NCBI GenBank assembly: GCA_902788605.1
Contig: CADAKX010000027.1
Coordinates: 1 to 64,000 of the forward strand
DNA: 64,000 nt
Direction: 5' to 3'
Origin: an uncultured Prevotellaceae bacterium
GTDB lineage: Bacteria; Bacteroidota; Bacteroidia; Bacteroidales; Bacteroidaceae
This document shows positions 230-64,000 of the stretch, in pieces. The notes under the pieces are model-generated. The model ran no database searches. It had not been told where the DNA came from and was given only the letters and a program-made list of their open reading frames with translations. Every line of letters begins with the position of its first letter. The first letter of the stretch is position 1. A program made the position numbers and the translations under genes.

Positions 230-236
230 CAATCAG

Positions 237-500: not shown

Positions 501-511
501 GTGTCTATTCA

Positions 512-1360: not shown

Positions 1361-1367
1361 AATAATA

Positions 1368-2531: not shown

Positions 2532-2536
2532 CGAAA

Positions 2537-3571: not shown

Positions 3572-3581
3572 TTTTCTATTT

Positions 3582-4706
3582 CTAAAAAAAATTAATGGAA
3601 TCCAAGACTTTCTGCATCTGAATTTTCCAAGTAAGATGCTGGACAGAATTACGAATTTCTATCGGATGTAAATTAAAGCTGTCTACAAATTCAATTATCC
3701 TTTGAATATCAATAGGCGATTCATCTGCAGGAGCCTTTAATACGTATGGTTTCTGATCAAAATCAGAATCATTTTCACTATAGATAAAAGGAATGCCACG
3801 CGTAGCATATTCACGGTTCTTCAGAGTTTTTATATCAGTGATACCAGAACGATGACGTCCCAAAGAGCCGATAGCAAATTGACATTGGTCAAATACCTTA
3901 GTAAGTTCGTCACCAAAAAGCTGACCATGGAATATTATTTTATCCTGCAAATGATATTTTTCAATTAGAGGAAGAAAGGTCTTTTCCATATGATCAGGAT
4001 GTACACCTCCAACGATATGGAAATATACCTTTCGAGAGCCTTTATAACACCCAAGACCTGTTAACACGCGATCAAAAGCATGCCATGGATGTACTTCTGC
4101 CACACCAATAAGATGGAGTTCTGATGACTGATGGCCGATGACTGATGAATGATGGAGCGGGATACTATCAAAATCTACACCGTTGCTTATGCGGATAGTA
4201 CGTTGACCAAAAATACGCTCACAATCAGAAAAAGTCACAACAGCATCCATCTGCTTATACAAACTATCACGAAATAATTGATCAATCTTCAAACCTATGC
4301 GCATCTTCCACTCAAAGTGTTTAAACTCTTGATCATAGGGGTAAGTTGGAATCTCTGTGACAGAATGGACACCAGCCTTTTTTAGTTCCATAAAGAAACG
4401 AATGAGCCAGGGGTTTGCATTTTGGAAGCAACGAGCATATACCATTTCAATCTTCTCGCGGATGCAATAATCGTAGATACAGTAATAATCCGTTCGCTGA
4501 CGAATACCAGCCAACACGCCCCTCCCATAGTCTTTAATCACCAAATCGTCGACATATCGGCAACTATGTCCATTTGCTGAAAAGTCATAATAGCACAAGC
4601 GTACTTCGTGTCCGTTTTCTCTCAAGCCTTTAACCTGATAGTGTATTTTTTTCGAGATACCGCTATGAGGCGAAAAACCATGATAAACTAAAAATAATAT
4701 TCTCAT
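3582..4706 (-). CDS. Atypical GT4-like glycosyltransferase with repeat-derived linker
   Basis: A 374-residue protein with a GT-B layout: N-terminal MRILFLVYHGFSPHSGISKK, then a linker near residue 170 and a second Rossmann half with HLIGVAEVHPWHAFD. The usual EX7E motif is not recognisable; the equivalent region reads RSGITDIKTLKNREYATRG, so it may be a divergent or donor-atypical member. The linker segment HHSSVIGHQSSE is encoded by a GATGACTGATGG-type repeat (4121-4155). It is the second gene of the minus-strand operon, 3 nt after its upstream neighbour. Confidence 0.7.
   Translation of the reverse strand: MRILFLVYHGFSPHSGISKKIHYQVKGLRENGHEVRLCYYDFSANGHSCRYVDDLVIKDYGRGVLAGIRQRTDYYCIYDYCIREKIEMVYARCFQNANPWLIRFFMELKKAGVHSVTEIPTYPYDQEFKHFEWKMRIGLKIDQLFRDSLYKQMDAVVTFSDCERIFGQRTIRISNGVDFDSIPLHHSSVIGHQSSELHLIGVAEVHPWHAFDRVLTGLGCYKGSRKVYFHIVGGVHPDHMEKTFLPLIEKYHLQDKIIFHGQLFGDELTKVFDQCQFAIGSLGRHRSGITDIKTLKNREYATRGIPFIYSENDSDFDQKPYVLKAPADESPIDIQRIIEFVDSFNLHPIEIRNSVQHLTWKIQMQKVLDSINFF
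4121..4155. repeat. GATGACTGATG-type short repeat inside a coding region
   Basis: The plus strand reads as degenerate, partly overlapping copies of GATGACTGATGG. It is in frame in the glycosyltransferase of 3582-4706 and encodes a linker between its two Rossmann domains. A similar tract lies in the neighbouring GT4 gene (5241-5268) at the equivalent position. Confidence 0.6.
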
Positions 4707-4709
4707 AGC

Positions 4710-5858
4710 CTACAAACTTTCAAATAATACTTTCCAACGTTCAGCAATCCTATCGATACAGAAACGCTTCACATTTTCCACTCCAGCCTGCCCCATCGAA
4801 CATCTTAGGCGTTCATCATCAATTAGCCGAACTAGTGCATTAGCCAACGCCTGCACATTTCCATTCTCGACCAATAATCCATCAGTGCCATCTGTAATAA
4901 TACTACGAGGCCCCCACGGGCAGTCAAACGTCACAACGGGAAGTCCACACGCCATCGCCTCAGTTATTACCATACCAAAACCCTCGAAACGAGAACTGAG
5001 CACAAAAAGACTACTCTCCAAGTAAGCTTTTTCTACATCGTTGGTACGTTCATGCAATTGATATCGACACTTGTTCAACCCTAACGTTTGAGCCTGTTGC
5101 TCATAACTGCTTCTATCACCATCACCATAAACGTCCAATCGCCAACCATCAGTTCGTTTTTCCACCAACGCCCACGCCTGCAACAAAAGGTCGATACCTT
5201 TCTCATGAGAATAGCGGGCAATAGCAACGACACGTTTAAATGATTGATGGCTAATGTTTGATGGCTGAAGTGACAGAGGGTCAGGAATAACTTCCACGTT
5301 ATCCAACTCCATCCAGGCCTTTTGGTCTTTCTCAGTAAGCACCACCATTTTATCGAGTTTCTTCAGATGACTCAGCAGTTTTCCAGACCATATCTTGGAA
5401 AACAAGCGTTTTACAATGCCAGCCTGCTCAGAATTAAAGTTGCGATAATTAGCACGATTAATATGCAATTCACCAACCTTCTTACTACCATCATGTATAG
5501 AGTTGAGGAAATTGATTTCCCTACGCAACAGACTCACAGTAATATCTGGGTGCAGCCGCATCAATTGTTCACTAAGCAGTTTTTTGTATTTTCGTTGTTT
5601 ATTCAGATATACAAATATCTTTTTTAGGAAACTGCATGTCCACAACTCTTCGAAACCAATATTGAGATTGATAACCCGAATCTTATCTGACAACGGATAG
5701 AACAACGGTTTGTCCTTGCCTTCAGTCAGTATAATAGTAATATCATATCCAAAGTGCTCTGCAAAATAATTAGCCTTAAGTGTCAGTACACGTTCCACAC
5801 CGCCTGCCATATAAAGGGCTGGTGTAAGATATACTATTTTCAAAGGCTTTTGTTTCAT
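4710..5858 (-). CDS. Family 4 glycosyltransferase
   Basis: First gene of the minus-strand polysaccharide operon, 382 residues. GT-B features are the N-terminal VYLTPALYMAGGVERVL, the interdomain VVAIARYSHEKGIDLLLQAW and the EX7E motif in FEGFGMVITEAMACG near residue 300. Its best internal relative in this window is the 1368-2531 protein (shared GPxxII, DGVDGLLVENGN-type C-terminus), which suggests the two are paralogues. The interdomain segment SLQPSNISHQSFK is encoded by a TGATGGCTAATG-type repeat. A TATATTTG -7 box (5877-5884) lies just upstream. Confidence 0.88.
   Translation of the reverse strand: MKQKPLKIVYLTPALYMAGGVERVLTLKANYFAEHFGYDITIILTEGKDKPLFYPLSDKIRVINLNIGFEELWTCSFLKKIFVYLNKQRKYKKLLSEQLMRLHPDITVSLLRREINFLNSIHDGSKKVGELHINRANYRNFNSEQAGIVKRLFSKIWSGKLLSHLKKLDKMVVLTEKDQKAWMELDNVEVIPDPLSLQPSNISHQSFKRVVAIARYSHEKGIDLLLQAWALVEKRTDGWRLDVYGDGDRSSYEQQAQTLGLNKCRYQLHERTNDVEKAYLESSLFVLSSRFEGFGMVITEAMACGLPVVTFDCPWGPRSIITDGTDGLLVENGNVQALANALVRLIDDERLRCSMGQAGVENVKRFCIDRIAERWKVLFESL
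5241..5268. repeat. TGATTGATGGCTAATG-type repeat inside a GT4 gene
   Basis: A degenerate TGATGGCT tract is read in frame in the minus-strand GT4 gene and encodes the residues just before the second Rossmann domain. It matches the style and structural position of the tract at 4121-4155. Confidence 0.5.
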
Positions 5859-5876
5859 ATATAGAATTTAATGCCA

Positions 5877-5884
5877 CAAATATA
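5877..5884 (-). promoter_or_regulatory. -7 box of the minus-strand glycosyltransferase operon
   Basis: TATATTTG on the minus strand lies 19 bp upstream of the ATG at 5858. No exact TTTG is found at the -33 spacing. The box overlaps the first codons of a longer plus-strand reading frame, which argues that the plus-strand gene starts at 5913 instead. Confidence 0.45.
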
Positions 5885-5912
5885 CGGAGAAAATTTGGAA
5901 TTGTACGCAGAA

Positions 5913-7067
5913 ATGAAAAAACTATGCTTCCTAACCGATTCCATCTTCTCGATTGGCGGCGTACAACGAGTGACGGCAGTCATTGCCAAGCAATTGGCAA
6001 AGGACTATGACGTGACCATCGTGACGCGGGACAGACTGGAGGATAAGGACACTTCGCTCTATCATCTGGATGAAGCAGACATTCACTATCGTTTCTTTCA
6101 ATATCCAGAGACGCCGAAATGGAAGCAACTGATTTGCAAGGCTTATAGCTATCTGTATCGAAAGGTGCTGCCACAGACGCGGTTCACGTCAGGCCTCTAT
6201 GCCCACAGTTCTTTTCCTTCGGAGAAAAGGGAGGCATTGACACAGGAGTTACAGCAGGGGCAGTTTGATGTCATTATTGGTGTTCATGCACCTTTGGCCG
6301 TCAGACTAGTTGCATGCAAGAAGGAACTGGGCAACACGAAATTGATTGGATGGATTCACAACTCATACAAAGCACTATTTGGTGAAGGCTCACACTATCT
6401 GGGACCTGAACTACGCACGCATTATGAGTGGCAACTGGATAAACTCTACAAGACCGTTGTGCTGTGTCAGCATGATGCGCAGGAATATCATATCCCCACG
6501 AGCGTCATCTACAACCCACTGACATTGGTACCAGGAGCTCCGTCTGCAGGTGGTTCCAAGAAATTCCTGGCCATAGGACGTTTCTCACCCAAGCACAAGG
6601 GGTTCGACCTCTTGATTCAAGCATTCGCACTATTTGCCAAAGACAACAAGGATTGGGCGCTCGACATCGTGGGTGAAGGTGAAGAGGATATCTACTATCG
6701 CAGCCTCATCGCCAATAGTCGTTTGGAGGACAGGATTAAGATTCATCCCTTTACCAACGATATTCAAAGATACTACCATGAGGCACAGGTCTTTGTGCTC
6801 AGCTCCCGCTGGGAAGGACTACCACTGGTGCTTATCGAGGCAATGGCACACGGACTTCCCATCGTGTCGTCAGACTTGCCTATGAGTAAGGAAATCATGG
6901 GCGACTTTGCTCAATATTTCAAAAATGGCGATATCAATGACTTGGCCCGCCGTCTGGAGGAGGCTACCATGATTGACTGGCAACAGAGATCGGAAGAGGC
7001 ACTGACTATTGCGGCCAGATTTGACGTGAAGGCTATCGTAAAACAATGGAAAGACATCATCGAATAA
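5913..7067 (+). CDS. Family 4 glycosyltransferase
   Basis: A 384-residue GT-B enzyme, divergent from the minus-strand operon. The start at ATG 5913 (MKKLCFLTDSIFSIGGVQRV) fits the family N-terminus; an upstream in-frame ATG at 5871 would add 14 unrelated residues and overlap the divergent promoter. Motifs are SIGGVQRV near the N-terminus, FLAIGRFSPKHKGFDLL before the second domain, and the EX7E pair in WEGLPLVLIEAMAHG. It is the first gene of a three-gene operon (gap of 4 nt to the next) and likely adds a sugar to the same surface polysaccharide. Confidence 0.87.
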   Translation: MKKLCFLTDSIFSIGGVQRVTAVIAKQLAKDYDVTIVTRDRLEDKDTSLYHLDEADIHYRFFQYPETPKWKQLICKAYSYLYRKVLPQTRFTSGLYAHSSFPSEKREALTQELQQGQFDVIIGVHAPLAVRLVACKKELGNTKLIGWIHNSYKALFGEGSHYLGPELRTHYEWQLDKLYKTVVLCQHDAQEYHIPTSVIYNPLTLVPGAPSAGGSKKFLAIGRFSPKHKGFDLLIQAFALFAKDNKDWALDIVGEGEEDIYYRSLIANSRLEDRIKIHPFTNDIQRYYHEAQVFVLSSRWEGLPLVLIEAMAHGLPIVSSDLPMSKEIMGDFAQYFKNGDINDLARRLEEATMIDWQQRSEEALTIAARFDVKAIVKQWKDIIE

Positions 7068-19473: not shown

Positions 19474-22017
19474 TTGTCCCTGACGGATGATATAGAAGCC
19501 GGGCTTGGTCATGTTCTGCACACGACGCCCATCAAGGGTAAAGATGCTTCTCTGCTGAGTGTCGTTCTCTGTCTGAAGAATACCATTGATAATCTGCGAC
19601 TCCTCCGGACTCTTCACCAAAGCCAACTCATAAAGAATCTTTCCATTGCTGACTGTATTCAGCAGAATACCTGTCACATCGAACTTCTTGCCTGCATAGC
19701 TCTTGGGCATAGTCAATTGATTCTTAGTGAGGCCAAAGGTATTATAGACTCGAATTGAGACAGAATCTCCCATGAGGAATACGCCCTTAAGACCTTCTAC
19801 AGTGGTGCTCTTCATCTCAGCACCTGCAATCGTCACCAAGTCAGAATAGTAGGATTTATTCACTTGATCGACAGCAAGGACATGGGGTTCTGCAGCGTCA
19901 CCCTCTATAACGCTGATGTTGGCACTATTGTCCACACCTTCATCAGCCAGCAACTGAGCAATCTCATTGGCCACACTGGGCTTACCAGCAATGAATCCAT
20001 TCAACACATCATTGGCCTTGACGTTCAAACCAGTATTCACGAGTGCTATGCTACCCACGAAGTCACGGACATAGATATCCTGATCATGCACATAGAGCAC
20101 CTGGGCATCGGCAAGCAACAGTTTTCCGAACTCGCCATCCTCAACGGTCTTGACAGCTCCGATATTGGCATACTCTGTCAATTCACTCACCGTAATCTGA
20201 CAAGTGGCTTTCAGCGCATCGTTACCATTAGCAATCACCGTGATGTTAGCAGTACCCACGCCAACAGCTGTCACCACGCCATTCTCATCAACAGTAGCCA
20301 CAGCCTCATTGTCAGAAGACCAAGCCAGCGTACAAGGTGCTGTCTCCGGATAGCACTCCACCTCAAGCTTATAGCTTAAGCCCACGTGCATCTCTGCCGT
20401 CTCAAGCATTTTCACACTGGTGAGGATGTTGACATCAATCACATCAAAGGTAATCACGCCATTCGTCTCCTTGATATTCTCAAGACCAAAGGGAGACTCC
20501 TTGCCTTTCCAAGTCTTCAGATTGGCGGGTGATGTCTGGTTATTCAACTTCTTCACCTTCTTGGTGCCAGGGAATGGGTCTGAATCGGTATCGCCAGATT
20601 TACTTCCTCCAGCACGCAGCAACTCGAAATAGTTATGCGAAGGGTTCGCATTGACCCTATTGTCAGTCCAGACTTGCGTATTCGTAGAGTCAACGCGGAA
20701 CACCAGCATACCATGTCCTGGTACATATTTGTTCCACTTATCTTTCTGACGGTTCTCCAAAAGGAAATACTCCTTCTTTTCACGGGTATTCAGTCTCAGG
20801 CCCGTATTCGTTGACACATTCTGGAGCGTGTAAGAACCAACGTTATCAATCACTTCTGGCGTAGCGAAGCCAACAGCATATCGCTCATAGAGCGAATAAC
20901 CAACGGGCGTACGACTGTAATTATGGTAACTGCCTCCGGACATGATATCCCACTCTCCAGGATGATGACTTTCGCCACCCGATTCTTCATAATCAGTATC
21001 ATAGGCGTCCATCAAGCCAAGCACATGACTAAACTCATGACAGATGGTGCCAATGCCATCAATAATGGCATATCCCTGCTGTTCCCATCCATACAGTTCG
21101 GTGGAACAAGCATAGCGTCCCAATCGGACACCATCTTTCCACACCCAGTCATAGGTCTGAGGATTGTACACAGAACTGGCATGCGGCCAGATATAACGCT
21201 CATCGTTTCCGCCATAGTTAGAACCATAACCAGCAAAGATAAAATAGATCATGTCGACCATGCCGTCATTATCACGATCATAGTCCTTGAAATTTACCTT
21301 TGAATCTGCAGCTTTGACAGCATCATTAATCAGCTGAGCTGCATTCTTAACGCCATTAGCATAATACTGATTTCTGTTCACCTTGACGGGACCTACTACA
21401 TCAAATTCGGGTTTAAACAGGCCACACGAGATATCATTAAAATAGTCGTGAACACTACCTGTGAAAGGATACTGAGAACTGAAACCACCGTATTCTTCGG
21501 CATTCGCAATATCATTGGCTATGGTAGCGTAGTCCTCGCGTGAGAAGCTCTTGTCACTAAACTCCACCAGAATAATCAGGCCACGGAAATTGTTATAGTC
21601 ATACTGGGGGGCACGTTTCACGACTGCTTGACGAGCCTGAGCACGACGAGTCAACTCCCTACTCTTCTCTTCGCTCACGGCCTTCGTCATCTTCGGTGTC
21701 TGGTATTTATTAACACCAGCCAGATAGGCCTTTTCTGAAGAAGTACGCTCACTGGCATCGTGAGCCACAAAACGTGTGGGGGTCAACTGTCCATCCTTCA
21801 GTTCGGCATAGACATATCGATTCTGCGCATCCTTCACCACAGAATAGCCATCTGTGGTGGTATTAAAATGCAGATACTCGTCGCCATGTAATCTAATGGT
21901 TACGGTTGTTCCGTCGGGCTGTTTCATCTTCACAGCCCCTTTTTGTGCTGGCACAGCCAATGCACATTGAATACCTAAGGCAATGGCAAATGTCAAAGAA
22001 ATTATTGTCTTTTTCAT
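19447..22017 (-). CDS. Secreted M6-family metalloprotease with Big2 domain and C-terminal sorting-like tail
   Basis: About 856 residues. ATG 22017 gives a signal peptide (MKKTIISLTFAIALGIQCALA). A propeptide-like region is followed by the catalytic domain with the zinc motif HEFSHVLGLMDAYD near residue 320 and GEWDIMSGG after it, typical of immune-inhibitor-A-like M6 peptidases. A bacterial Ig-like domain (WSSDNEAVATVDENGVVTAVG) lies near residue 580. The C-terminus ends FTLDGRRVQNMTKPGFYIIR... KVFVK, resembling a type IX secretion-type tail. It probably degrades extracellular protein. The promoter is at 22038-22069. Confidence 0.87.
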   Translation of the reverse strand: MKKTIISLTFAIALGIQCALAVPAQKGAVKMKQPDGTTVTIRLHGDEYLHFNTTTDGYSVVKDAQNRYVYAELKDGQLTPTRFVAHDASERTSSEKAYLAGVNKYQTPKMTKAVSEEKSRELTRRAQARQAVVKRAPQYDYNNFRGLIILVEFSDKSFSREDYATIANDIANAEEYGGFSSQYPFTGSVHDYFNDISCGLFKPEFDVVGPVKVNRNQYYANGVKNAAQLINDAVKAADSKVNFKDYDRDNDGMVDMIYFIFAGYGSNYGGNDERYIWPHASSVYNPQTYDWVWKDGVRLGRYACSTELYGWEQQGYAIIDGIGTICHEFSHVLGLMDAYDTDYEESGGESHHPGEWDIMSGGSYHNYSRTPVGYSLYERYAVGFATPEVIDNVGSYTLQNVSTNTGLRLNTREKKEYFLLENRQKDKWNKYVPGHGMLVFRVDSTNTQVWTDNRVNANPSHNYFELLRAGGSKSGDTDSDPFPGTKKVKKLNNQTSPANLKTWKGKESPFGLENIKETNGVITFDVIDVNILTSVKMLETAEMHVGLSYKLEVECYPETAPCTLAWSSDNEAVATVDENGVVTAVGVGTANITVIANGNDALKATCQITVSELTEYANIGAVKTVEDGEFGKLLLADAQVLYVHDQDIYVRDFVGSIALVNTGLNVKANDVLNGFIAGKPSVANEIAQLLADEGVDNSANISVIEGDAAEPHVLAVDQVNKSYYSDLVTIAGAEMKSTTVEGLKGVFLMGDSVSIRVYNTFGLTKNQLTMPKSYAGKKFDVTGILLNTVSNGKILYELALVKSPEESQIINGILQTENDTQQRSIFTLDGRRVQNMTKPGFYIIRQGQEKRKVFVK

Positions 22018-22037
22018 AAATCTAGTATTTGAGTTCG

Positions 22038-22069
22038 CAAAGGTAACACTTTTTTTCAATATAACCAAG
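22038..22069 (-). promoter_or_regulatory. Promoter of the M6 protease gene
   Basis: Minus-strand TACCTTTG (22038-22045) and CTTG (22066-22069), 20 bp apart. The palindrome array starts about 80 bp further upstream. Confidence 0.55.
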
Positions 22070-22149
22070 TACTATCTCAATTTGTTTAGTCTAAAATAGC
22101 TATTTTTAAGGAGATAGAAACATAGAAAGAGTACATATCAATTCTTTTT

Positions 22150-22223
22150 TCACGACGTGAAAATAAATAATCACGCCGTGAAATAATAAAATCACGTCGT
22201 GGTTTTAGTTAATCACGACGTGA
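22150..22223. repeat. Array of four 11-bp palindromes at exact 21-bp period
   Basis: Copies start at 22150, 22171, 22192 and 22213: TCACGACGTGA, TCACGCCGTGA, TCACGTCGTGG and TCACGACGTGA. Variation is confined to the central base and one end base, while the 10-bp AT-rich spacers differ. The exact 21-bp step is two helical turns, so all sites face the same side of the DNA. This looks like cooperative operator sites for a dimeric regulator. The last two sites overlap a plus-strand promoter (22203-22234). Confidence 0.85.
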
Positions 22224-22234
22224 TTATAACTTTG
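22203..22234 (+). promoter_or_regulatory. Possible plus-strand promoter overlapping the palindrome array
   Basis: TAACTTTG at 22227-22234 with TTTT/TTTA at 22203-22207 about 19 bp upstream. A transcript from here would run antisense into the 3' end of the 22315-24381 gene. Confidence 0.4.
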
Positions 22235-22263
22235 ATACGTTATATCGAATCTTTTATAATACG

Positions 22264-22291
22264 AAAAAAGGGAAGACCCTATGGCCTTCCC
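22264..22291 (-). terminator. Intrinsic terminator of the SusC/SusD operon
   Basis: On the minus strand GGGAAG pairs with CTTCCC and is followed by six T, shortly after the stop at 22315. Confidence 0.75.
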
Positions 22292-22314
22292 TTCTATATA
22301 GTCAGTGAAATAAA

Positions 22315-24381
22315 TTACTTCACGATGAACTTCTTGCCGTCGCGAACAACAAGACCCTTCTTGCCGTTAACCTGGCGACCGCTCAGGTCATAGGTCTTAC
22401 CGTTGGCAACCTTAGAGGTTACAACAGTCTGTACGCCCTCAGTAGCACCCTGAGAAACAGTAACCTCAAGCTTAGCACCACGCTGAGCAAATACGAACTT
22501 ACCAGTACGGCCAGATACACCCTCGGGCAGAGCTTCAGCAGTAAAGGTCAAATCGAAGCCCCATGCTTCATCTGTATAAGACTCGTTTGCGATATTCACC
22601 TCTACCCAATCAGGATAATCCTCATTCTCTAGCCAAAGCATGGTAGTTTTATTTTCATTATCATCAAACGTACAGAACATAGGATAGATGCCATCAACAC
22701 GGGCAGTACCACCTTCAGCAGGAATCACCAAATCGGTAGGATTCTCTGTGTGCAGATAACCATAAGTGGCATTATTGAAGCCAACTAGGCATACACCTGT
22801 GTTACTCCAACCAGCACCTCTGTACTCAGTTTCTCCTGAAACAATTGCATAGGTAGAAGAATAACCTGTAGTCAGTGATGATGAAACGATAATAGGTCTG
22901 CCAGAGAAGGTCTCATTGTCCCAACCATCAATTACAATAGCAAATTCCTCATCAAGAAGGAGATAGTCAAGATCAGAAGTCATACCAAACTCATCCTCAA
23001 CATAGAAGCTATTAAAATTAACACGGGTAAACAAGGAACCAGTTTCAACTTCCTTATCGCAATCAGACTGAGCAATAACCTCGCCCAAAGAGAACACACC
23101 GTTCACATCACGATGAGCCTTGCAGATCTTAGCTGTCATGTTCAGCTCTTTTCCTGAAGCAACAGCAAACTGATAAATGGCAATGTTAACACCCGTAAAG
23201 TAGAGAGGTGCTGAGGGCTTTCCCTGATAGTAAATCATAGCAGAACAACCTGCAGGATTCAAAAGAGAAAGTTCGTTAGCAGAATTAGCTTTTGTGAAAG
23301 TACAGGTAGGAGAGCTGCCATCATCCCATGAATCGGCATCACCACCTGCCGTCCATACGCCCTCATTCCATGCAAAGGGAGTAGAAGAAGCGCCTTGGTA
23401 AGTAGAAACAAGTGTAGCAGGAGAATAGTAGCCAGTTGTTACAGGGAATGTGAAATCCTTGGCTGAACCGGTAATAGCATCTGCAGTTGGAACAAACTGC
23501 TTAGCTGCAGCATCATACTCAACGGCCTGAACAGACCATGCGTATGAATCGCAGTCGATGTCTGTTCTATTCGTCAAAGTAATATTTGTAAAAGCAGGCA
23601 TCAACACATTATCATAGTAATTACCATTCACGTTACATCCGGGATGCAAGAAGAATGACTCGGGTTCATAGCCGGCAACAGGAGTTACTACCTGACCCTC
23701 CATAAAATATTTCACCTTCTCAATATCCAAGACCAAGCCAAGATATGGGCCATCCTTCAAAAGGCTGAATTCATTGGCAGAGAAAGCAGAGTAAGCAATA
23801 TCCTCACCCTCAATAGTGTTGAGAGAGCCATCTTCACCCAAGGTCAATACAATTGAACCATCTTCAGATGTCCAGCTATGAATAAAATAGTAGATCTTTT
23901 CACCAGTCTGTGACTCACCACTTACAACGCACTGAGGAGCAACAGTAAGTGTATTTCCTGAAACTTCGCACTTAACAGCGATCGCTTCCAAAGAACTCCA
24001 TTCTGAAGGCAGGGGAATCATGTCAATCAAATATGTAGTACCTTTTTCTACAGCTGTTTGCATCACCCATTTTGCAGGCTCCTGCGTCTGGTAATTACGA
24101 CCAGTTCCATTGTAAACACCCTGCAAGGCTGCTGCTTTACGAGGAGTCGATGAGCTGATATTATTGGTAGCAGCCAACTTCACAAAATTAGTAGCAGGTG
24201 CAGCCTTCTTTACATATTGGCTGATACCAGCAGCAACAGGTTTGTTCACATAGGTTTTCATGGTACCTTTGTTCACAACTTGTGTTCTTGACTTAGCAGG
24301 CATATTCTGTCTGCCAAGAGTCTGAGCTACTGACGAGCCCGCCAGCAGTACAGCAATTGAGAAAAGGAAAAATTTCTTCAT
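22315..24381 (-). CDS. Secreted protein of unknown function with C-terminal sorting-like tail
   Basis: A 688-residue protein with a signal peptide (MKKFFLFSIAVLLAGSSVAQ). The body is beta-rich with no recognised enzyme motif. A BACON- or Ig-like segment precedes the end (DLVIPAEGGTARVDG near 560, to KLEVTVSQG), and the C-terminus is YDLSGRQVNGKKGLVVRDGKKFIVK-like, resembling type IX secretion tails. It is the last gene of the SusC/SusD operon, 41 nt after the DUF4302 gene. A surface ligand-binding or cargo role is an inference from context. Confidence 0.7.
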   Translation of the reverse strand: MKKFFLFSIAVLLAGSSVAQTLGRQNMPAKSRTQVVNKGTMKTYVNKPVAAGISQYVKKAAPATNFVKLAATNNISSSTPRKAAALQGVYNGTGRNYQTQEPAKWVMQTAVEKGTTYLIDMIPLPSEWSSLEAIAVKCEVSGNTLTVAPQCVVSGESQTGEKIYYFIHSWTSEDGSIVLTLGEDGSLNTIEGEDIAYSAFSANEFSLLKDGPYLGLVLDIEKVKYFMEGQVVTPVAGYEPESFFLHPGCNVNGNYYDNVLMPAFTNITLTNRTDIDCDSYAWSVQAVEYDAAAKQFVPTADAITGSAKDFTFPVTTGYYSPATLVSTYQGASSTPFAWNEGVWTAGGDADSWDDGSSPTCTFTKANSANELSLLNPAGCSAMIYYQGKPSAPLYFTGVNIAIYQFAVASGKELNMTAKICKAHRDVNGVFSLGEVIAQSDCDKEVETGSLFTRVNFNSFYVEDEFGMTSDLDYLLLDEEFAIVIDGWDNETFSGRPIIVSSSLTTGYSSTYAIVSGETEYRGAGWSNTGVCLVGFNNATYGYLHTENPTDLVIPAEGGTARVDGIYPMFCTFDDNENKTTMLWLENEDYPDWVEVNIANESYTDEAWGFDLTFTAEALPEGVSGRTGKFVFAQRGAKLEVTVSQGATEGVQTVVTSKVANGKTYDLSGRQVNGKKGLVVRDGKKFIVK

Positions 24382-24422
24382 AATTAATATAATTTATAAA
24401 GTTAATAATGTTCCAATGAATG

Positions 24423-25752
24423 TTATTTTGCACAATTAAAGGTCAGACCTCCTGAAAGAGAAGTAAACTTAGCACCAGTAGGAAGGAAATAGTCATTGGG
24501 CACTACATCATATGTTCCAACGTAATACTTCGCCATCTCCACTGCAAGAGTATACATGTCGGCAGCCTTCTTAACAATGGCATCCATGTTCTTATCGCAA
24601 GCAGGTTCTTCTGCCATAGACATGTCAAACTGTCCGTATTTCAAACGAGCTAGCGCCATCTCAAGACCTACAGTATTGGTCTTCGTCTTTTGTGCGTTGG
24701 TATAGAAGGTCATAACCAAACCACTAACTGCGCCACCGCCAGTACTCTTACCCAGACCTACACTTTTAAGTGACCAACGAGAATCAAACTTTTTAATTTC
24801 AGTATCAATCTGAGATAATAATGATTTCTGCTCGTCAGTATACTCTGTGTCGTCAAAGTTCCATATATCGGTTCTTGACACCATATATTTATCCCAGCAA
24901 GCAACCACCTTTACCTTGCCATCTTCATTCAGAAGGCAAGTTGAGTCACTGCTCATCTTAAACTCCTGGAATGCAGCATCTGCGAGAGAATCGGGACGCT
25001 CCAGACGGAAACGTCTTCTTCTGCAAAGGATCAGTAATGCGCTCACCATAAACAAACAGGCCTTTGTAAAGATCAGCAAAGTACATCGTATCCTTGTCAT
25101 TGATTACATAATGACTTGGCAGTGTAGAAGTAGCAATATGATTCTTCATTGCCTTTGTGTCAGCAATATACTGCTGCCAAGGACGATCACAGGGAATCAG
25201 ACGGCTGATAGCGCCATGACGCTCGCCATAGAACTGCATTTCATCATCAGTCAGTTTCTTGAGAACCAGGTTCTGGTCACCATACATACCCTCACCATCG
25301 TTAACAAGCGAACCTGGAGCCTTGGAGGGATCTACAGGATCAACAAAAACGGTAAGAATGTCGTTCCATGTATTGAATGACAGCACAGAACCTTCCTCAG
25401 AAAGCATATCATAGTAACTGTTACTCTCAGTATACTTATTGGCATTGCCATTACGCAGGAACCTGTGGTCGCTGGCCAATGTTACAGCACCATTCTTATA
25501 GAAACGACCAAAGAGGTTGAAGCCCTCAAAGTTGTAGTCATCAGTACCAGAGACGAAATACTGGATAACCCAGCCATTCTTGTCTGCTGCACTCTGCTCA
25601 ACCAAACGGTTCTTAATATTCTCATTCTGATGAGTGACACGCAACGAAGCACTCTCATCAAAATACTCATCCTGCTCAAACGAGCAACTGGTCGTGAGAG
25701 CCGTAGCCATCATGAAGGCCGGAAGCGTGAGAAATATTTTCTTATATGTCAT
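24423..25752 (-). pseudogene. DUF4302 lipoprotein, frameshifted
   Basis: Two overlapping frames encode one protein. The first (from ATG 25752) has a lipoprotein signal with TTSCSFEQDEYFDESASLR, then DUF4302-type sequence up to ITDPLQKKTF. The second continues with RLERPDSLADAAFQEF to a stop at 24423. Joining them needs removal of one base in the TTT at 25009-25011, giving about 442 residues. The change may be a real mutation, a sequencing error or, less likely, +1 slippage at TTT-CCG. DUF4302 proteins accompany SusC/SusD pairs with zinc metallopeptidases; their function is unknown. Confidence 0.75.
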
Positions 25753-25780
25753 AATTGTCTTTCTTTCTGTGATTCAACGT

Positions 25781-27016
25781 TTATTTCAGGTCATAAATGG
25801 TCACATTGTCCTTGACGAAGTCGTTCACCTTATCCTGGCGCAAGCGAACCTCATTGCGGATTTTGAACAGGTCAAGCCCCCATTTCTCCTTATACCATTT
25901 CTGAGCAATCTGCAATTTCTTCAGAATGGCATTAATACCAGCAGCCTTATCCTCAACATCATCCTTTACCCATTTATCAAGATAATCTCTGAAAGAAGTA
26001 AAAGTAGCTACTTTCTCGAACTTCAAAGTGGCCTCGCTCTTTTCACGAGCTTCACTCAAATGGAAATCTGGTACATAACGACCAGTCTCCGTATACTCTT
26101 TTTCATTGTCTGCCTTAGATAACTCCTTGTAAATAGAGAAGTTATTCCAAACCTTATTTGGATTATAAAAATCACGAATACCAAGAGAATCAATCAACTC
26201 ATACACAGCTTCTTTGTCACCAGCTTTCACGCCACCATTCAAACAGGCTTCAATAATCGTGGTCATCCAACGATAGTCTGTATCAGTGATGGTGCAAGAC
26301 AGAGTCTCCACAAAGTCCTCATAGGTCGCAGAAGAACCATAGTGGGTCAGATAACCCAGCATGTGAGTCTCGATAGAGTCACGCTTCTGCCAGTCACGTG
26401 GCTGATAAGTTCCAGAAGTAACCTGACCAAAGGCAACAGGATAACTCTTTGTCTGGTGCAGAATATGTGAGAACTCATGGTGCATCACATGGAACTGGTC
26501 CTTGTTCAACTGGTCCATATCCACATCCGTGTAAGGAGTCTCAGGAGTCCAGTACTTCATGTTGTTCACATTAATCAGCGTGATCTTCACACCTGCCGAT
26601 GCATAACCCAGCGTCTCAGTACCTGTTGAAGGAGCATAAGCAGCAGAGCCGATATAGTGGAACATACGGGGACCATACTTCTTCATGAAATCCTCGCCAC
26701 CATATTTATTATATACATCATAGAACAGATACTTAATGAAGTGACTCAGCAACTGTGACTTCTTGTAGTCAGCAGGGGTGAGCTGATAATCCATGTTAGA
26801 TGCAGGGAGATTAAACTTATACTGAATCTCCGTATTATAAGGCACCACGAAGTTGTCGTAAAGCCACTGGTCAAACGGAGCTGTTGCTGATGTGGTATCA
26901 ACAGCACCAACAGTCGTATCAAAGATGGTGCTTGTGAAGTCATCATCATTGCTACATGACGACATGGTTAAACCCATGCTGGTAGCCAGGAAGAAATATA
27001 ATATCTTTTTCATCAT
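25781..27016 (-). CDS. SusD-linked putative zinc metallopeptidase lipoprotein
   Basis: A 411-residue lipoprotein (MMKKILYFFLATSMGLTMSSCSNDD, lipobox cysteine near 22). The zinc-binding motif HHEFSHILHQ lies near residue 180 and a downstream ED-rich helix with DFVETLSC may supply the third ligand. This matches the putative zinc-binding metallopeptidase family found next to SusC/SusD pairs in Bacteroidales. It lies 10 nt after susD and is followed by the DUF4302 gene. It probably cleaves a protein or peptide on the cell surface; the substrate is unknown. Confidence 0.83.
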   Translation of the reverse strand: MMKKILYFFLATSMGLTMSSCSNDDDFTSTIFDTTVGAVDTTSATAPFDQWLYDNFVVPYNTEIQYKFNLPASNMDYQLTPADYKKSQLLSHFIKYLFYDVYNKYGGEDFMKKYGPRMFHYIGSAAYAPSTGTETLGYASAGVKITLINVNNMKYWTPETPYTDVDMDQLNKDQFHVMHHEFSHILHQTKSYPVAFGQVTSGTYQPRDWQKRDSIETHMLGYLTHYGSSATYEDFVETLSCTITDTDYRWMTTIIEACLNGGVKAGDKEAVYELIDSLGIRDFYNPNKVWNNFSIYKELSKADNEKEYTETGRYVPDFHLSEAREKSEATLKFEKVATFTSFRDYLDKWVKDDVEDKAAGINAILKKLQIAQKWYKEKWGLDLFKIRNEVRLRQDKVNDFVKDNVTIYDLK

Positions 27017-58501: not shown

Positions 58502-59239
58502 ATGAAACAAGACAAAGATTTAGTGTTCTTGGCTAGATGCCAGAATGATGACCTTCGCACGTTGTGTGATATTCTCACCTATAATAATAAAGGTGAGATA
58601 AGACTGAGTGAGCAACTGACAAATACAGACGCCTATCTCAACTGCTATCCAGACAGAATGAACCTGATGGCGGCAGAGATTGCGGAAGAGTTGCGAAAGT
58701 TTGGTAGTAATACTATAAGAACAATCTGTAGAAAAGGAGAAGCAGACAGTTACGAGACTATAGTACGACGAGTGTGTAAAAAGATGAGCGTAAAGGTGGA
58801 TGACTGCGATAACACCCAAACTATGGAGTATGAACTGCTAACCACGATCTGTGAACAGACTACCAGCAAACTATCTGATGAAGAACTTAGAAAACTGGCT
58901 GACAAGGCTGGTATTCCCCACAAGAGTTTGAACCATCAAATGCTTGTAACTACCATTTTGTTTGCCATCCGCAGAAACACTTATTTGCTGACAGAGATGA
59001 TCTATTATGTTACGTCGCGAATTGCCAGTATGCTGTTAGGTCGCTGGATTGGCATGATGGGTATGAGCGCTGTCAGTCGATATTTGGGAATGGCAGCAGG
59101 CCCTATAGGATGGACTCTTTTGGCTGGTTGGACTATTAGCGATATTGCCTCGCCTGCTTATCGTGTAATGATTCCAGCTGTTATCATGGTGGCTTCTATG
59201 CGCTTCCGTCAGAATGTATTTTTACCCCAAAAGATATAG
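58502..59239 (+). CDS. YaaW/UPF0174 (DUF3944) family protein
   Basis: A 245-residue protein whose N-terminus (MKQDKDLVFLARCQNDDLRT... YNNKGEIRLSEQL) matches E. coli YaaW: a D-L-x-F-L start, then LT-N-KG-RLS. The middle region (AAEIAEELRKFGSNTI, YETIVRRVCKKM) and the C-terminal hydrophobic stretch with AGPIGWTLLAGW and SPAYRVMIPAVI also fit YaaW. One or two membrane segments are likely near the C-terminus. The function of the family is unknown. ATG 58502 is chosen, since a longer frame would cross the promoter and operator. First gene of the island; the M48-type peptidase gene follows after 5 nt. Confidence 0.85.
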   Translation: MKQDKDLVFLARCQNDDLRTLCDILTYNNKGEIRLSEQLTNTDAYLNCYPDRMNLMAAEIAEELRKFGSNTIRTICRKGEADSYETIVRRVCKKMSVKVDDCDNTQTMEYELLTTICEQTTSKLSDEELRKLADKAGIPHKSLNHQMLVTTILFAIRRNTYLLTEMIYYVTSRIASMLLGRWIGMMGMSAVSRYLGMAAGPIGWTLLAGWTISDIASPAYRVMIPAVIMVASMRFRQNVFLPQKI

Positions 59240-59244
59240 GTATT

Positions 59245-60042
59245 ATGCAAGCAAAGGACATTATGCATCCAGAGGATGCCAAAGCGTTACAAGTGCTCCG
59301 TAAGCTAAAGGGATTCGATGAACTTATCAGACTCTCGATGGAATATGGCTATGAGCAGCTTTATCGTGGTGAGAACCTTGGTATGTTGCTGAAAGTTAAT
59401 ACAGAAAATTACCCTTTACTCTTTCAAACCTTCAAAGAAGTTGTGAAGACTGTTGGTATTCGAGAGCCTGAGCTCTATATCTACAACGATCCTGTGATGA
59501 ATGCCTATACCTATGGCGAAACCAATACGTTCATAGCATTAAGCAGTTCATTAGTTGAGCGAATGAATATCAACGAATTGCGTTGCGTCATTGCCCATGA
59601 GTGTGGGCATATCCTATGCCAACACACTTTATATAATACATTGCTGCGAACCATCCACGAGCTAGGCTATTGGCTGCAGTTGTTGTCGTATGCCACTTTA
59701 GGACCAACCTTGATGGCAATGCAATACTGGAGCCGCAAGAGTGAATTATCTGCTGATCGTTGTGCTGCAGTTGTAGTGGGTGAGCGCACATTCCAGATGA
59801 CAATGCTAAAACTCACTTGTGGAATGAAGGAGATAAAGGGTAGTCCCTATCAGCTTGTTGAGCAGGCACGTGAGTACCATCGCCTTGAAAAATCTTCATG
59901 GCTAGACCGCATTCAGCAGAACTGCCGAGTTGCCTTTTACACCCATCCCCAAATGGTGAATCGTGCCTGGGAGATAGACCGCTGGAAAAACTCCTGGCAA
60001 TACAGAAGTCTTAGAGAGAAAATACAAGAAAAGAATAATTAA
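59245..60042 (+). CDS. M48-type metallopeptidase
   Basis: A 265-residue protein with the zinc motif HECGHILCQH near residue 119 and the third-ligand region SELSADRCAA near residue 170, the HExxH...E/SAD arrangement of M48 peptidases. A preceding TYGETNTFIALSSSL segment matches the substrate-strand region of the family. Membrane helices are few or absent, unlike HtpX, so it is a soluble or peripherally bound type. It lies 5 nt after the YaaW gene and 12 nt before the next gene, so is almost certainly co-transcribed. Confidence 0.85.
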   Translation: MQAKDIMHPEDAKALQVLRKLKGFDELIRLSMEYGYEQLYRGENLGMLLKVNTENYPLLFQTFKEVVKTVGIREPELYIYNDPVMNAYTYGETNTFIALSSSLVERMNINELRCVIAHECGHILCQHTLYNTLLRTIHELGYWLQLLSYATLGPTLMAMQYWSRKSELSADRCAAVVVGERTFQMTMLKLTCGMKEIKGSPYQLVEQAREYHRLEKSSWLDRIQQNCRVAFYTHPQMVNRAWEIDRWKNSWQYRSLREKIQEKNN

Positions 60043-60054
60043 CTCCGAAGTATT

Positions 60055-60621
60055 ATGAAAATGATAAACTTGAATAGCATTAAGAGTTATTGTGAACGCT
60101 TTTGGTTCACTCCCAATGTGGTAAATCTGCGAATTGCGCTGATGGATTACTTTCGCCAGGAAGGTATAAAGTGTAAATTAGAGGATGGCCATGTGAATTT
60201 TGACTATGGTGATTTCGAGTTCAATGCAGTATTCAAATTATATGATAATTATGTAGAATGTATCATAGAATCGGATTGTGAAGATGAAGATTATCAGAAT
60301 TTAGAGGGTAAAGAAAAGGCTCTTTTGGCCGATCGGGTAAATATCGATCAGGATAATCGCTGTGTTGTTAAAGCATACAACGATGTAGTTGAAGTTGAAA
60401 CCTTCTTCTATTTTACGAATACAAAGATGATGCTGGAAATATTCTGTGAGCGGTTAAACGAGCTTGTAAGTAGCCTAAGACAGCTGGATGAGATTTTGTC
60501 AGGTTTGAAAAAAGAGTCCAGAGAAATCAAACCACGAAGAATAGGTTTCTATATAGAAACTGACGACGGTGAAGAGTCTGAGGAAGAAGATGATTTCGCA
60601 ATAGTTGCAAAAGCAAGATAA
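60055..60621 (+). CDS. Small acidic alpha/beta protein, possibly YbjN-like
   Basis: A 188-residue protein with no clear domain match by eye. The N-terminal 150 residues alternate helices and strands (IALMDYFRQEGIKCKLEDGHVNF, EFNAVFKLYDNYVECIIE), resembling the YbjN or secretion-chaperone fold. The C-terminus is highly acidic (DDGEESEEEDDF). A chaperone or adaptor role in the island is a guess. It lies in tight order after the M48 gene and 6 nt before a small membrane protein gene. Confidence 0.55.
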   Translation: MKMINLNSIKSYCERFWFTPNVVNLRIALMDYFRQEGIKCKLEDGHVNFDYGDFEFNAVFKLYDNYVECIIESDCEDEDYQNLEGKEKALLADRVNIDQDNRCVVKAYNDVVEVETFFYFTNTKMMLEIFCERLNELVSSLRQLDEILSGLKKESREIKPRRIGFYIETDDGEESEEEDDFAIVAKAR

Positions 60622-60627
60622 AAAACT

Positions 60628-60864
60628 ATGAAATTAGATATTGTAACAAAAGGAATCCCATTCCTCCACATGACTGTTGTTGCAGTTATGGTGTTGGTTG
60701 GTGTCCCTAGAATTTTTACTTATACTTCGTTGTTTTGGGTTTATTGTGCTATTATGTCAATACCTCTTACCGAAGAAGAGTTATACTTAGAATTCCCCCC
60801 CTTATGGCGATACAGACATCTGTTTGGTTTAGGAGTTTGCTTTTTGATTTCACAGAATGCATAA
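60628..60864 (+). CDS. Small membrane protein
   Basis: A 78-residue protein with two or three hydrophobic segments (FLHMTVVAVMVLVGVP, IFTYTSLFWVYCAIMSI and FGLGVCFLI) joined by an acidic loop. No family is recognised. It closes the first transcription block of the island, 6 nt after the acidic protein gene. Small size lowers confidence. Confidence 0.5.
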   Translation: MKLDIVTKGIPFLHMTVVAVMVLVGVPRIFTYTSLFWVYCAIMSIPLTEEELYLEFPPLWRYRHLFGLGVCFLISQNA

Positions 60865-60903
60865 TAGAAAAATTCACTTAGTAATAAAAAAAGGAATAAA
60901 AAC

Positions 60904-60935
60904 CTTGGATGTTTAAGTAAAATACCCTATATTTG
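60904..60935 (+). promoter_or_regulatory. Internal promoter of the island
   Basis: CTTG at 60904-60907 and TATATTTG at 60928-60935, 20 bp apart. It would start a transcript with a leader of about 150 nt before the ATG at 61100. A weak hairpin (GAGGA... CTCCTC) lies early in the leader. No open frame is seen in the 235-bp gap. Confidence 0.55.
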
Positions 60936-61099
60936 CCCAAACATTCTAAGAGGAAACGAGCGTCTCCTCAATTTGATATATTACACGACAGGCTGAAAAG
61001 CATTGTTATAGGTGAATATTCTATTACTAAGCAAGTCTATAGGAAGGATAAAGATTCTTTTCTTGTCGCAAAGGTATAAAACGTAAAACTATAAGAATT

Positions 61100-62665
61100 A
61101 TGATTGAAAAATCTAAAATGAGCAAGAAGAAAAAACGAGGCTCAAAATATGACAGTATTTCAAAAGTTGCTATAGAAGGTGCTGCAACAGAAACAGTACA
61201 GCTTTATGGTGCTGCGGGTAAAGAGCATCTTGTTGCTTATTCTGGGATTGACAACGAAAAAAGTGGTGGGGGAAAAATTTTGAAAAGAGGGCTAAAGAAA
61301 ATTGCCAAAAGCAAAGTTAATCCAAATTATAAGAAAACAAATCTCAAGCAGCAGGCAGGATTTGCTGCTGAAGAAAAATACCGCGCACGACAAAATGCGG
61401 AAAAAATCATAAAGGGTGAAAGCACACGATATACTAGAACAGACGATATTGGTTACCCTAACGATCCGCTACGTGACCATGTTCTATTAGATAGTGAAGG
61501 TGTGGAGATTCTTGGAACGGGCGAACAAATGAAATTCGTGGGAAGTTCACCAAAAGCATGTCTTGCCAAACTTAATTCTGCAAAATTTCAAAAATATATA
61601 GATGCAAACCTTAAAATTACCGTTCCAAGCGATTATTATGAAGGTATTTTGGAAGAAGCTGATAAAGAGATAGAAAAACTTGAAGGTCAGTTAAAGCGAG
61701 CTGAGTCAGTTGGTGACAAGGATTTGGCTGCTGAAAAACAAGCGAAGATAGACAATTTAAAAAAAATAAAAGCAAGTATCCGTAATAGTGGCATTTCTAA
61801 TAAAGAGGCATTGTTTGCTCGAACACATCCTAAACTATCAACTGCTATTGATATGGGTAAATTGGCTCATCGAGCTGGTATGAAGCAAGCCAAATATGGT
61901 GCTGCCATTGCTGGAAGTTTGTCATTAGTAAGCAATACAGTAGCAGTTATCAAAGGAAAGAAGCAGGTAGGCGATGCCGCAACAGAGCTAGCATTGACTA
62001 CTGGTAAAGGTGCTGCTCTCAGCTATGCGACAGCCTTCTCTGGTAGCATTGTTAAATCTTTTATGCAGAATTCTGGCAGCCAAATGGCAAGAACTTTATC
62101 AAAGACAAACATTGCTTCTACGATGGTAACGACCACATTAGAAACAGGAAAAACCATTCATAAATATATAAGAGGTGACATTAACGGTTTAGAGTGTTTG
62201 GAAGAATTAGGGCAAAAGGGAGTTAATCAAATCAGTGCGGCAATGTTTGCCGCAGCAGGTCAGGCACTTATACCAATTCCTGTTGTTGGTGCGATGGTTG
62301 GCTCTATGGTTGGTTATGCACTCTCCAATGCCTGTTATAAAGAGCTAAAAGATGCACTCCGGGAAGAAAAACTGGCCAAAGAAGAACGTATTAGAATTGA
62401 AGCAGAATGTGCCGAGGCAATCAGGATGATTCGCCAGTATCGCATAGAAATGAATGAATATGTTGATATGTATCTAACAGAACATATTCAGGTTTTTAAC
62501 AACGCTTTTGAACAGATGAATGAAGCTATTGGCAAGGATGGCCTCATTGACGATATTGAAGGGTTCATAGGTGCTAATAACCAAATCAGACAAGTTTTAG
62601 GCTATCAACCCGTCATAACAAGTTTAAGTGATTTAGATAACGAACAACATATATTTAAATTATAA
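61100..62665 (+). CDS. Glycine-zipper membrane protein with coiled coil, function unknown
   Basis: A 521-residue protein not matched to a named family. It has a very basic N-terminus (KKKKRGSKYDSI), a charged middle with a coiled coil near residues 185-235 (DKEIEKLEGQLKRAESVGDK), then hydrophobic, Gly/Ala-rich segments at about 265-335 and a strong glycine-zipper-like stretch near 385-410 (IPVVGAMVGSMVGYALSNA). A helical C-terminal domain follows (AEAIRMIRQYRIEMNEYVD). The layout suggests a membrane-inserting or pore-related protein. It has its own promoter and is followed 20 nt later by another glycine-rich protein gene. Confidence 0.6.
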   Translation: MIEKSKMSKKKKRGSKYDSISKVAIEGAATETVQLYGAAGKEHLVAYSGIDNEKSGGGKILKRGLKKIAKSKVNPNYKKTNLKQQAGFAAEEKYRARQNAEKIIKGESTRYTRTDDIGYPNDPLRDHVLLDSEGVEILGTGEQMKFVGSSPKACLAKLNSAKFQKYIDANLKITVPSDYYEGILEEADKEIEKLEGQLKRAESVGDKDLAAEKQAKIDNLKKIKASIRNSGISNKEALFARTHPKLSTAIDMGKLAHRAGMKQAKYGAAIAGSLSLVSNTVAVIKGKKQVGDAATELALTTGKGAALSYATAFSGSIVKSFMQNSGSQMARTLSKTNIASTMVTTTLETGKTIHKYIRGDINGLECLEELGQKGVNQISAAMFAAAGQALIPIPVVGAMVGSMVGYALSNACYKELKDALREEKLAKEERIRIEAECAEAIRMIRQYRIEMNEYVDMYLTEHIQVFNNAFEQMNEAIGKDGLIDDIEGFIGANNQIRQVLGYQPVITSLSDLDNEQHIFKL

Positions 62666-62685
62666 CCCTTTAAAACAATACAATT

Positions 62686-63681
62686 ATGCCATTCCCATTA
62701 ATTCCCGTTGCAATAGCAGTTCTAGCAGCAGGTGCTTTTGGTATCGGTAAGACAGTAAAAGCAGGTATTGACATCAAAAAAGCGAATAGAACTAACAAGG
62801 ATGCGAATTCAATTATTAAGAACGCCAAATGGCGTTTAAATACAAGTAGGCTTTCAAGTAGAGATGCTATTGAGAAGCTTGGAACTCAGAAACTGGAAAT
62901 TTTAGACAAAGGCATTAATCGCTTTGTCAAGTCTTTCGAGCAATTGCGTAATATAGAAATTGAGAACTCTATTGGGTTGCAAGAACTCAGCAAGTTTAAA
63001 ATGGACAAGCAATCATTTGCTGAACTTAAAGAAATGGGAGACTTTGCTACTTCTGTTTTAGGAGGAATGTCGGTTGGAACGTTGGGCGGTGCTATCACAG
63101 CTTTTGGTGCATGGGGAGCTGCTGGACAACTTGCTGCTGCATCAACAGGAACGCTTATTGCTAACCTAAGTGGTGCTGCTGCGACCAATGCGACTCTAGC
63201 ATTTTTTGGTGGAGGTTCATTAGCTGCTGGTGGTTTGGGCATTGCTGGTGGAACAATGGTGCTTGGTGGTATTGTTGCAGGGCCAGCCCTGGCTATTATG
63301 GGTTTAATTGTTGGAGCAAAAGCCAACACAGAAAAGGAGAAAGCATTAGCTAATTTAGCCACAGCACGTAAAACTGCAGAAGAATTAATTACAGCAAGTG
63401 ATGTCTGTATTGCAATACGCAAACGCTGCTACTTGTTCATTGAATTGTTGGAAAGATTAACGAATATGTTCAATCCTCTATTAGACCAAATGGAAACTGC
63501 TATCAATAATCATGGAGCAGACTATTCGTTATTTAATATTGAGGAAAAGAAAGCTGTAGCAGGCGCACTCTCGCTTGCTGGTACTATCAAGGCAGTTATT
63601 GACACACCAATTCTTAACAAGGATGGTAAACTTACAAATGAATCTGCACAAATAATTCGTGAAATAAACAAATCTATTTAA
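62686..63681 (+). CDS. Glycine-rich hydrophobic membrane protein, function unknown
   Basis: A 331-residue protein with a hydrophobic start (PLIPVAIAVLAAGAFGIG), a charged helical region to about residue 115, then a long Gly/Ala-rich hydrophobic block (about 120-215) with repeated GG pairs such as GGGSLAAGGLGIAGG and MVLGGIVAGPALAIMG. A helical C-terminal domain follows. The composition is typical of membrane-inserting glycine-zipper proteins. It lies between the 521-residue protein and a second YaaW gene (12 nt), in one operon. Confidence 0.6.
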   Translation: MPFPLIPVAIAVLAAGAFGIGKTVKAGIDIKKANRTNKDANSIIKNAKWRLNTSRLSSRDAIEKLGTQKLEILDKGINRFVKSFEQLRNIEIENSIGLQELSKFKMDKQSFAELKEMGDFATSVLGGMSVGTLGGAITAFGAWGAAGQLAAASTGTLIANLSGAAATNATLAFFGGGSLAAGGLGIAGGTMVLGGIVAGPALAIMGLIVGAKANTEKEKALANLATARKTAEELITASDVCIAIRKRCYLFIELLERLTNMFNPLLDQMETAINNHGADYSLFNIEEKKAVAGALSLAGTIKAVIDTPILNKDGKLTNESAQIIREINKSI

Positions 63682-63693
63682 AACTATAACATC

Positions 63694-64000
63694 ATGAGTA
63701 ACTATTTAGAAGACAAAGATTTGGAGTTCTTAAAGAATTGTCCAAATGAAGATTTGAAGGTTTTGGCCGATTTGTTGGTGTTTGACAAAGACGGAAAGAA
63801 ACGTTGGAATGAAAAACTATCAGAAAAAAAGTCTTATTTAGAAGGCTATCCTAACAATCTCAAAAATGCAGTTGACGATATTATTCTAGAATTACAATGC
63901 TATGGCGCTGACACCATTGCGTCTGCTGCCAGGGAAATCTTTGGAAAACATCCTGGTGTGCCTTACAGAGAGATTCTAATGGATGTATGCGACAAGAAAA
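63694..64000 (+). CDS. Second YaaW/UPF0174 (DUF3944) family protein, partial
   Basis: Starts at ATG 63694 with MSNYLEDKDLEFLKNCPNED and is cut by the window end after about 102 residues. DKDLEFLKNC, LLVFDKDGKKRWNEKLSE and LELQCYGADTI align with the first YaaW protein (58502-59239) and with E. coli YaaW. It is a diverged paralogue, so the island probably repeats its YaaW module or uses two subunits. Confidence 0.8.
   Translation, partial: MSNYLEDKDLEFLKNCPNEDLKVLADLLVFDKDGKKRWNEKLSEKKSYLEGYPNNLKNAVDDIILELQCYGADTIASAAREIFGKHPGVPYREILMDVCDKK

Follow-up and report, generated by a model that had tools for sequence, protein, structure and literature searches.

A group of seven genes at the end of a 64,000-nucleotide stretch from an uncultured Prevotellaceae bacterium (contig CADAKX010000027.1, positions 1 to 64,000; hereafter the window) raises the question of what an M48 metallopeptidase does in the company of two YaaW-type proteins and several membrane-type proteins. 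The original prediction took this region (58502–64000) for a candidate undescribed system of membrane stress or defence. Defence is backed by family and context, while little favours stress, and the seven genes together likely form a phage defence. Its kind is already known from Juk and PDC-M09 (PDC is a PADLOC label, which we take to mean phage defence candidate), and the fixed JukA-M48 pair and the nuclease-like M09B protein may be new. We read the cluster as two linked anti-phage modules, one consisting of JukA1 and the M48 peptidase, and the other in which JukA2 likely acts with two further proteins, predicted to be a nuclease and a pore former, and give this reading a probability of about 0.5.

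The first gene (58502–59239; all seven genes are on the plus strand) encodes a sensor-type protein of 245 amino acids (aa) in the YaaW/UPF0174/DUF3944 group, here called JukA1, which matches the PADLOC JukA model (E = 6e-46) and Pfam DUF3944 (2.6e-14). The last gene, JukA2, begins at 63694 and runs over the window edge. Beyond 64000 it is completed, at contig position 64461 (255 aa, of which 102 lie inside the window), and the contig ends at 65500. JukA2 matches JukA with 2.4e-22 over the 102 aa inside the window and DUF3944 with 2.1e-16, and shares 32% identity with JukA1. YaaW was formerly described as having no known function; this does not hold, because the protein is JukA, known as the sensor in the published jumbo phage killer (Juk) system, and the JukA-family feature of that system is present in the cluster. 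A sequence search of solved structures with JukA1 gave no useful match, the hit at 3.6e-4 having no stretch that passes alone.

The second gene (59245–60042) starts 5 bases after JukA1 and encodes a 265-aa protein matching Pfam Peptidase_M48 (8.9e-22). The HExxH and downstream ExxAD motifs are both intact (HECGH and ELSAD), which places the protein in peptidase family M48. HtpX is the most similar among the families scanned. Assignment to HtpX itself was rejected, as the HtpX models reach 23.8–56.9 bits against cut-offs of 245–422 and in the hydropathy profile no segment exceeds the threshold used.

The pairing of the two genes recurs. A sample of 399 genomes from the window's family contains JukA in 12, the window's own included, and eight of the others have it in full length. 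M48 follows JukA directly in six of these eight (genomes G349, G473, G660, G354, G392, and G615), at −10 to 17 bp from the end of the JukA domain, and does not in the other two (G572 and G542); partial or broken JukA places (G603, G404, G678, and a second one in G473) are outside this count. Locus L003, from a Prevotellaceae metagenome-assembled genome, has the same adjacency, which brings the genomes with M48 immediately behind JukA to eight, the window's included. The JukA proteins of these eight form a single branch with support of 98/99 in a tree of 28 sequences (28 of the 29 places, those longer than 180 residues), while JukA2 of the window and that of L003 lie elsewhere, near a long-branched row. 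The eight JukA-linked M48 proteins likewise form one branch (99/99) against seven other M48 proteins of the same phylum, beside which no JukA is seen in the stretches fetched. M48-type proteins occur in 8 of 395 genomes of the phylum sample at E up to 1e-30, the seven besides the window's being a separate group. HExxH and ExxAD are kept in all eight JukA-linked proteins and in 111 of 116 M48 homologues (those of at least 240 residues among the best 120 of 1003). Since seven other genomes have M48 immediately behind JukA, the grouping is not one of chance, and we read the pair as co-inherited. No paper coupling JukA with an M48 peptidase was found in the literature, judging from titles and the beginnings of abstracts, which is not proof of absence.

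JukA is rare at a wider scale, occurring in 1 of 295 genomes of the order sample, the window's own. Fourteen JukA loci were found on viral contigs. They contain no M48 or M09A match in the selected frames (a selection from which the JukA of L078 and L086 was itself absent), and an all-frame repeat on 13 of the 14, with L086 left out, again gave neither. No M48 of the JukA-linked type and no M09A relative was found on viral contigs, and no M09B in phages. JukA without M48 or M09A is seen on pO111-type Escherichia coli plasmids and on viral contigs. JukA sits on a pO111-type plasmid (L051:4992–5744) and on related viral contigs (L074–L077), beside a small gene annotated as a helix-turn-helix regulator in L051, so that a phage-plasmid may itself be equipped with an anti-phage sensor. 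Three further viral contigs (L079–L081) carry near-identical JukA genes with adjoining genes that look phage-like by eye. A JukA remnant interrupted by a stop is found at G603:C41:10074–10388 (L061), where HerA-type and WYL-type genes are also present.

The fifth and sixth genes encode proteins of 521 aa (61100–62665) and 331 aa (62686–63681) that match the PADLOC models PDC-M09B (1.7e-20) and PDC-M09A (7.6e-24), respectively. They had been proposed as part of an undescribed system; their grouping stands, and the pair itself is already listed as the candidate defence pair PDC-M09B/A. The 521-aa protein had been regarded as a glycine-zipper protein. A Gly-rich hydrophobic segment (378–408) is indeed present among the long helices of its C-terminal half, but the protein is not simply of this type, as the structure model has a nuclease-like domain in the N-terminal half. 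In this model (predicted local distance difference test score, pLDDT, 81.2; predicted template modeling score 0.68), residues of about 60–180 follow the order alpha-beta-beta-beta-alpha-beta. Glu91 lies in helix 75–105, Asp126 just before strand 127–130, and Gln143 on strand 142–144 with Lys145 at its end, followed by helices 151–158 and 161–168 and strand 172–175. The four residues are invariant in 56 aligned rows including that of the window, and the E...D...QxK motif fits 116 of 120 homologues (the best 120 of 747). An analogous arrangement is recognized by eye in the diverged M09B proteins of L041 and L042. The PD-(D/E)XK core has the alpha-beta-beta-beta-alpha-beta order, with the Asp and (D/E/Q)xK on neighbouring strands. 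Because the order of strands and helices matches this core, the 521-aa protein is predicted to be a PD-(D/E)XK-like nuclease on a membrane stalk. A sequence search of solved structures gave no useful match for it, and the 50 matches listed per fold search include no evident PD-(D/E)XK nuclease; these searches used whole models and were dominated by helices.

The model of the 331-aa protein (pLDDT 65.1) consists of two long helices (11–86 and 213–276) around a Gly-rich hydrophobic region at about 128–214. The fold search with this predicted helical membrane protein gives weak matches to ClyA, an alpha pore-forming toxin, and the sequence search of solved structures gives no useful match. We regard this protein as a candidate pore former. 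Many listed proteins of the 331-aa type, among them P0014, P0019, P0045, and P0114, reach 515–560 aa through a C-terminal extension of at least about 190 residues; the extension contains Sel1 repeats in P0014 and fits no Pfam family clearly in P0019 or P0045, which suggests that proteins of this type have exchangeable tails.

The relation between the two halves of the cluster is seen in the relatives. The genes of L003 are ordered JukA1-M48-M09B-M09A-JukA2; the acidic and small hydrophobic genes that lie between the halves in the window are unmatched there, and farther along, past other genes, comes a WYL-domain regulator. Window and L003 share 80.6% identity over the JukA1-M48 block and 86.5% over the M09B-M09A-JukA2 block, while the DNA between the blocks does not match, so the halves read, at the level of sequence, as two modules with partly separate histories. 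A 161-aa gene is found downstream of JukA2 in two loci (L002:8901–9386 and L003:11698–12183), with differing genes in between. JukA-M48 occurs without M09 in L057 and L059 (also in L056, a contig of only 3.7 kb), and M09B-M09A without JukA in L010, L041, and L042 (also in L030, a 7.2-kb contig). Because of these occurrences, the locus reads better as two tandem modules, JukA1-M48 and M09B-M09A-JukA2.

An M09A relative nevertheless shares the locus with JukA-M48 in four of the seven other cases (L003, L035, L040, and, weakly with E = 1e-12, L046). Of the 398 other genomes, 11 have JukA, 17 have M09A, and 4 have both (Fisher p = 6e-4, a value that ignores relatedness); the two counts were treated as one sample, their handles agreeing, and weak M09A matches in G288, G130, and G040 (4e-4 to 7e-4) were left uncounted. 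The close 521-aa type accompanies JukA in one other locus only, that of the near relative L003, and the remote relative in L035 (1e-7) matches by its C-terminal part alone. Among plasmids, M09A was found in one record, from Azospirillum (L010:10395–13949), where M09B and M09A stand behind a WYL gene, with a 309-aa gene of no known function in the same stretch and no JukA match; genes annotated as a RecD-like helicase, DUF3320, and a PD-(D/E)XK nuclease family lie in the vicinity. A Methylomonas plasmid carries JukA and then a short M09A-type gene (1.1e-13). Other neighbours are shared in part: a 420-aa protein upstream of JukA is common to L035 and L046 (78% identical), a 377/375-aa protein to L040 and L057 (63% identical), and a PDC-M40B-type protein is found in L059 and L035, an M40B gene also adjoining the M09A relative of L034.

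The surroundings point to defence. Four of ten chosen neighbours match a defence model, and the other six do not: DruE of Druantia (L040) and Cas13b (L057) adjoin JukA-M48 loci, HerA (L061) is near the broken JukA, and IetA (L042) is near an M09 pair. WYL-type genes are near JukA in L003, L035, L056, L059, L060, L061, and L062 and, more weakly, in L040 and L057, an identity checked with Pfam for the gene of L003. The title of PMC9122601 says of a WYL family that it is found together with phage defence systems and islands. At L057:2776–6021, the Cas13b gene lies upstream of the JukA-M48 pair; in the section of a review covered here, nucleus-forming phages are given as targets of Cas13 and of Juk alike. 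The original prediction was right in describing a candidate defence locus where a protease accompanies proteins of membrane type.

How the parts could work together may be outlined from the published Juk system, the models, and the motifs. JukA would recognise an early membrane-associated phage structure, and JukA1 would bring the co-inherited M48 peptidase there, which would license the effectors by cleavage. JukA2 would bring M09A and M09B, the Gly-rich region of the 331-aa protein inserting into the membrane and the 521-aa protein carrying its nuclease-like domain to the phage DNA, so that pore and nuclease together would destroy it. A bolder form, which we consider doubtful, is that JukA1 and M48 detect a phage-made membrane compartment and that the protease frees a membrane-spanning nuclease, which is threaded through its partner pore and cuts DNA that ordinary nucleases cannot reach.

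The main rival to two linked modules is two independent systems stacked side by side, in which M48 is itself the effector of JukA1, destroying phage or host proteins, and M09B-M09A-JukA2 is a nuclease and pore system free of protease. The pairs found apart from each other, and the unequal identities of the two blocks to L003 with no DNA match between, fit this explanation, while the M09A relatives in four of the seven other JukA-M48 loci (one of them weak) and the presence of both blocks in L003 speak for a connection; we hold independence to be possible, if on the unlikely side. The occurrence of JukA-M48 without the M09 pair and of M09 without M48 also indicates that M48 is not an obligatory antidote. 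It thereby makes it improbable that M48 restrains the effectors until infection blocks the protease and the freed effectors kill the cell, as in toxin-antitoxin-like abortive infection, even though the protease and the membrane-type proteins lie together and the halves are separated by a promoter-like site of a kind no commoner than expected by chance.

A housekeeping response to membrane stress, akin to quality control by HtpX, would suit the likeness of the M48 protein to that family. The sparse occurrence of JukA, the differing flanks among the mapped loci, the defence-gene and WYL-type neighbours, and the GC shift disagree with such a role, for which neither a conserved chromosomal position nor presence in most strains is seen, and we consider it quite improbable. 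Least credible is a grouping of unrelated genes by chance. Many neighbours do differ between loci, but the adjacency is recurrent and JukA and M48 each form a single supported branch, which contradicts chance for the JukA-M48 pair; the original prediction had named as the sign of a chance grouping that homologues of the 521- and 331-residue proteins never co-occur with YaaW or M48 elsewhere, a test that did not refute it, the JukA-M48 link recurring.

Several observations weigh against two linked modules acting as outlined. The separate occurrence of the pairs (L057 and L059; L010, L041, and L042) means that a joint mechanism is not forced. The model of the 331-aa protein is poor precisely in the membrane region. 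The predicted nuclease domain has no sequence relative in Pfam or the PDB, and the fold searches with whole models returned nothing at E of 0.001 or below. In the PADLOC scan, no hit to a model named JukB, after the pore-forming effector of Juk, came from the seven proteins, though whether the library has such a model was unchecked. The window and L046 show no WYL gene, both contigs ending nearby. Proteolytic control by the M48 peptidase is a proposal, and the Juk account of the review, as far as the section covered goes, does not speak of M48. In the part covered of the published test of JukAB in PAO1, the system gave no protection against its 15 phages, for which the authors blame the panel.

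Comparison with known systems shows shared and differing features. The cluster shares with Juk (JukA-JukB, acting against jumbo phages in Pseudomonas aeruginosa) the JukA sensor family and a sensor that adjoins a candidate membrane-active effector; unlike Juk, it has two JukA paralogues, an M48 protease, and a predicted nuclease domain joined to a membrane stalk. Both proteins of PDC-M09 are matched, adjacent, and in the order B-A, which assigns the pair to this candidate system; unlike PDC-M09 alone, it is here joined to JukA2 and JukA1-M48. M09A relatives adjoin BnzB in L033 and L046, and BnzB is also near JukA in L046 and L060, BnzA and BnzB being the PADLOC models of what is presumably the system named Bunzi; the seven proteins of the window have no match to either at E up to 1 and are not assigned to it. 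The 331-aa protein matches LeoBC of the bacterial dynamin LeoABC (3e-6), but no GTPase domain is found with Pfam. In protease-activated gasdermins, a caspase-like protease licenses a pore former. The cluster shares the idea of licensing by a protease, by description, with M48 in that place and a putative cleavage.

The remaining genes of the cluster lie between the two modules. An acidic 188-aa protein (60055–60621; 41 Asp/Glu against 24 Lys/Arg), a candidate adaptor, follows M48 and has relatives at the same place in L040 (tblastn, 8e-37) and L035 (2e-23). A Pfam YbjN protein (1.7e-9) occupies this place in L046, and small frames of other kinds do so elsewhere. The small hydrophobic protein (60628–60864; 78 aa, hydrophobic segments within residues 5–36) has no tblastn match at E of 0.1 in the seven other JukA-M48 loci. 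The seven genes are intact and closely packed on one strand, as first described, with gaps of 5, 12, 6, 235, 20, and 12 bases. A Bacteroidota-type promoter-like site with one mismatch is found upstream of the 521-aa gene (60904–60935, plus strand); such sites are not above chance, with one found against 1.86 expected in one scan and four against 1.96 in another.

The region is AT-richer than the rest, as had been noticed: its guanine-plus-cytosine (GC) content is 0.393 against 0.473 for the remaining window, and none of 107 overlapping 5.5-kb segments elsewhere is as low. At a 2-kb scale, segment 2001–4000 (0.363) is below the cluster mean. Other AT-rich stretches are 1–6000 and 22001–26000 (0.36–0.43), and proteins encoded at 512–3571 resemble glycosyltransferases by eye. 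Horizontal transfer had been proposed from this composition and from a mobile-element-like remnant upstream. The remnant is not confirmed, as the 84-aa frame at 57907–58161 matches no Pfam family and no tRNA is detected within the window. Better support for transfer comes from L003: the DNA similarity to it begins abruptly at 58409, with none found farther upstream, which fits transfer of a block.

If the reading as two linked modules is true, proteolysis would join the Juk toolbox, and the fixed JukA-protease pair together with a nuclease on a membrane stalk would offer answers open to testing as to how cells bring enzymes into the compartments that shield phage DNA.

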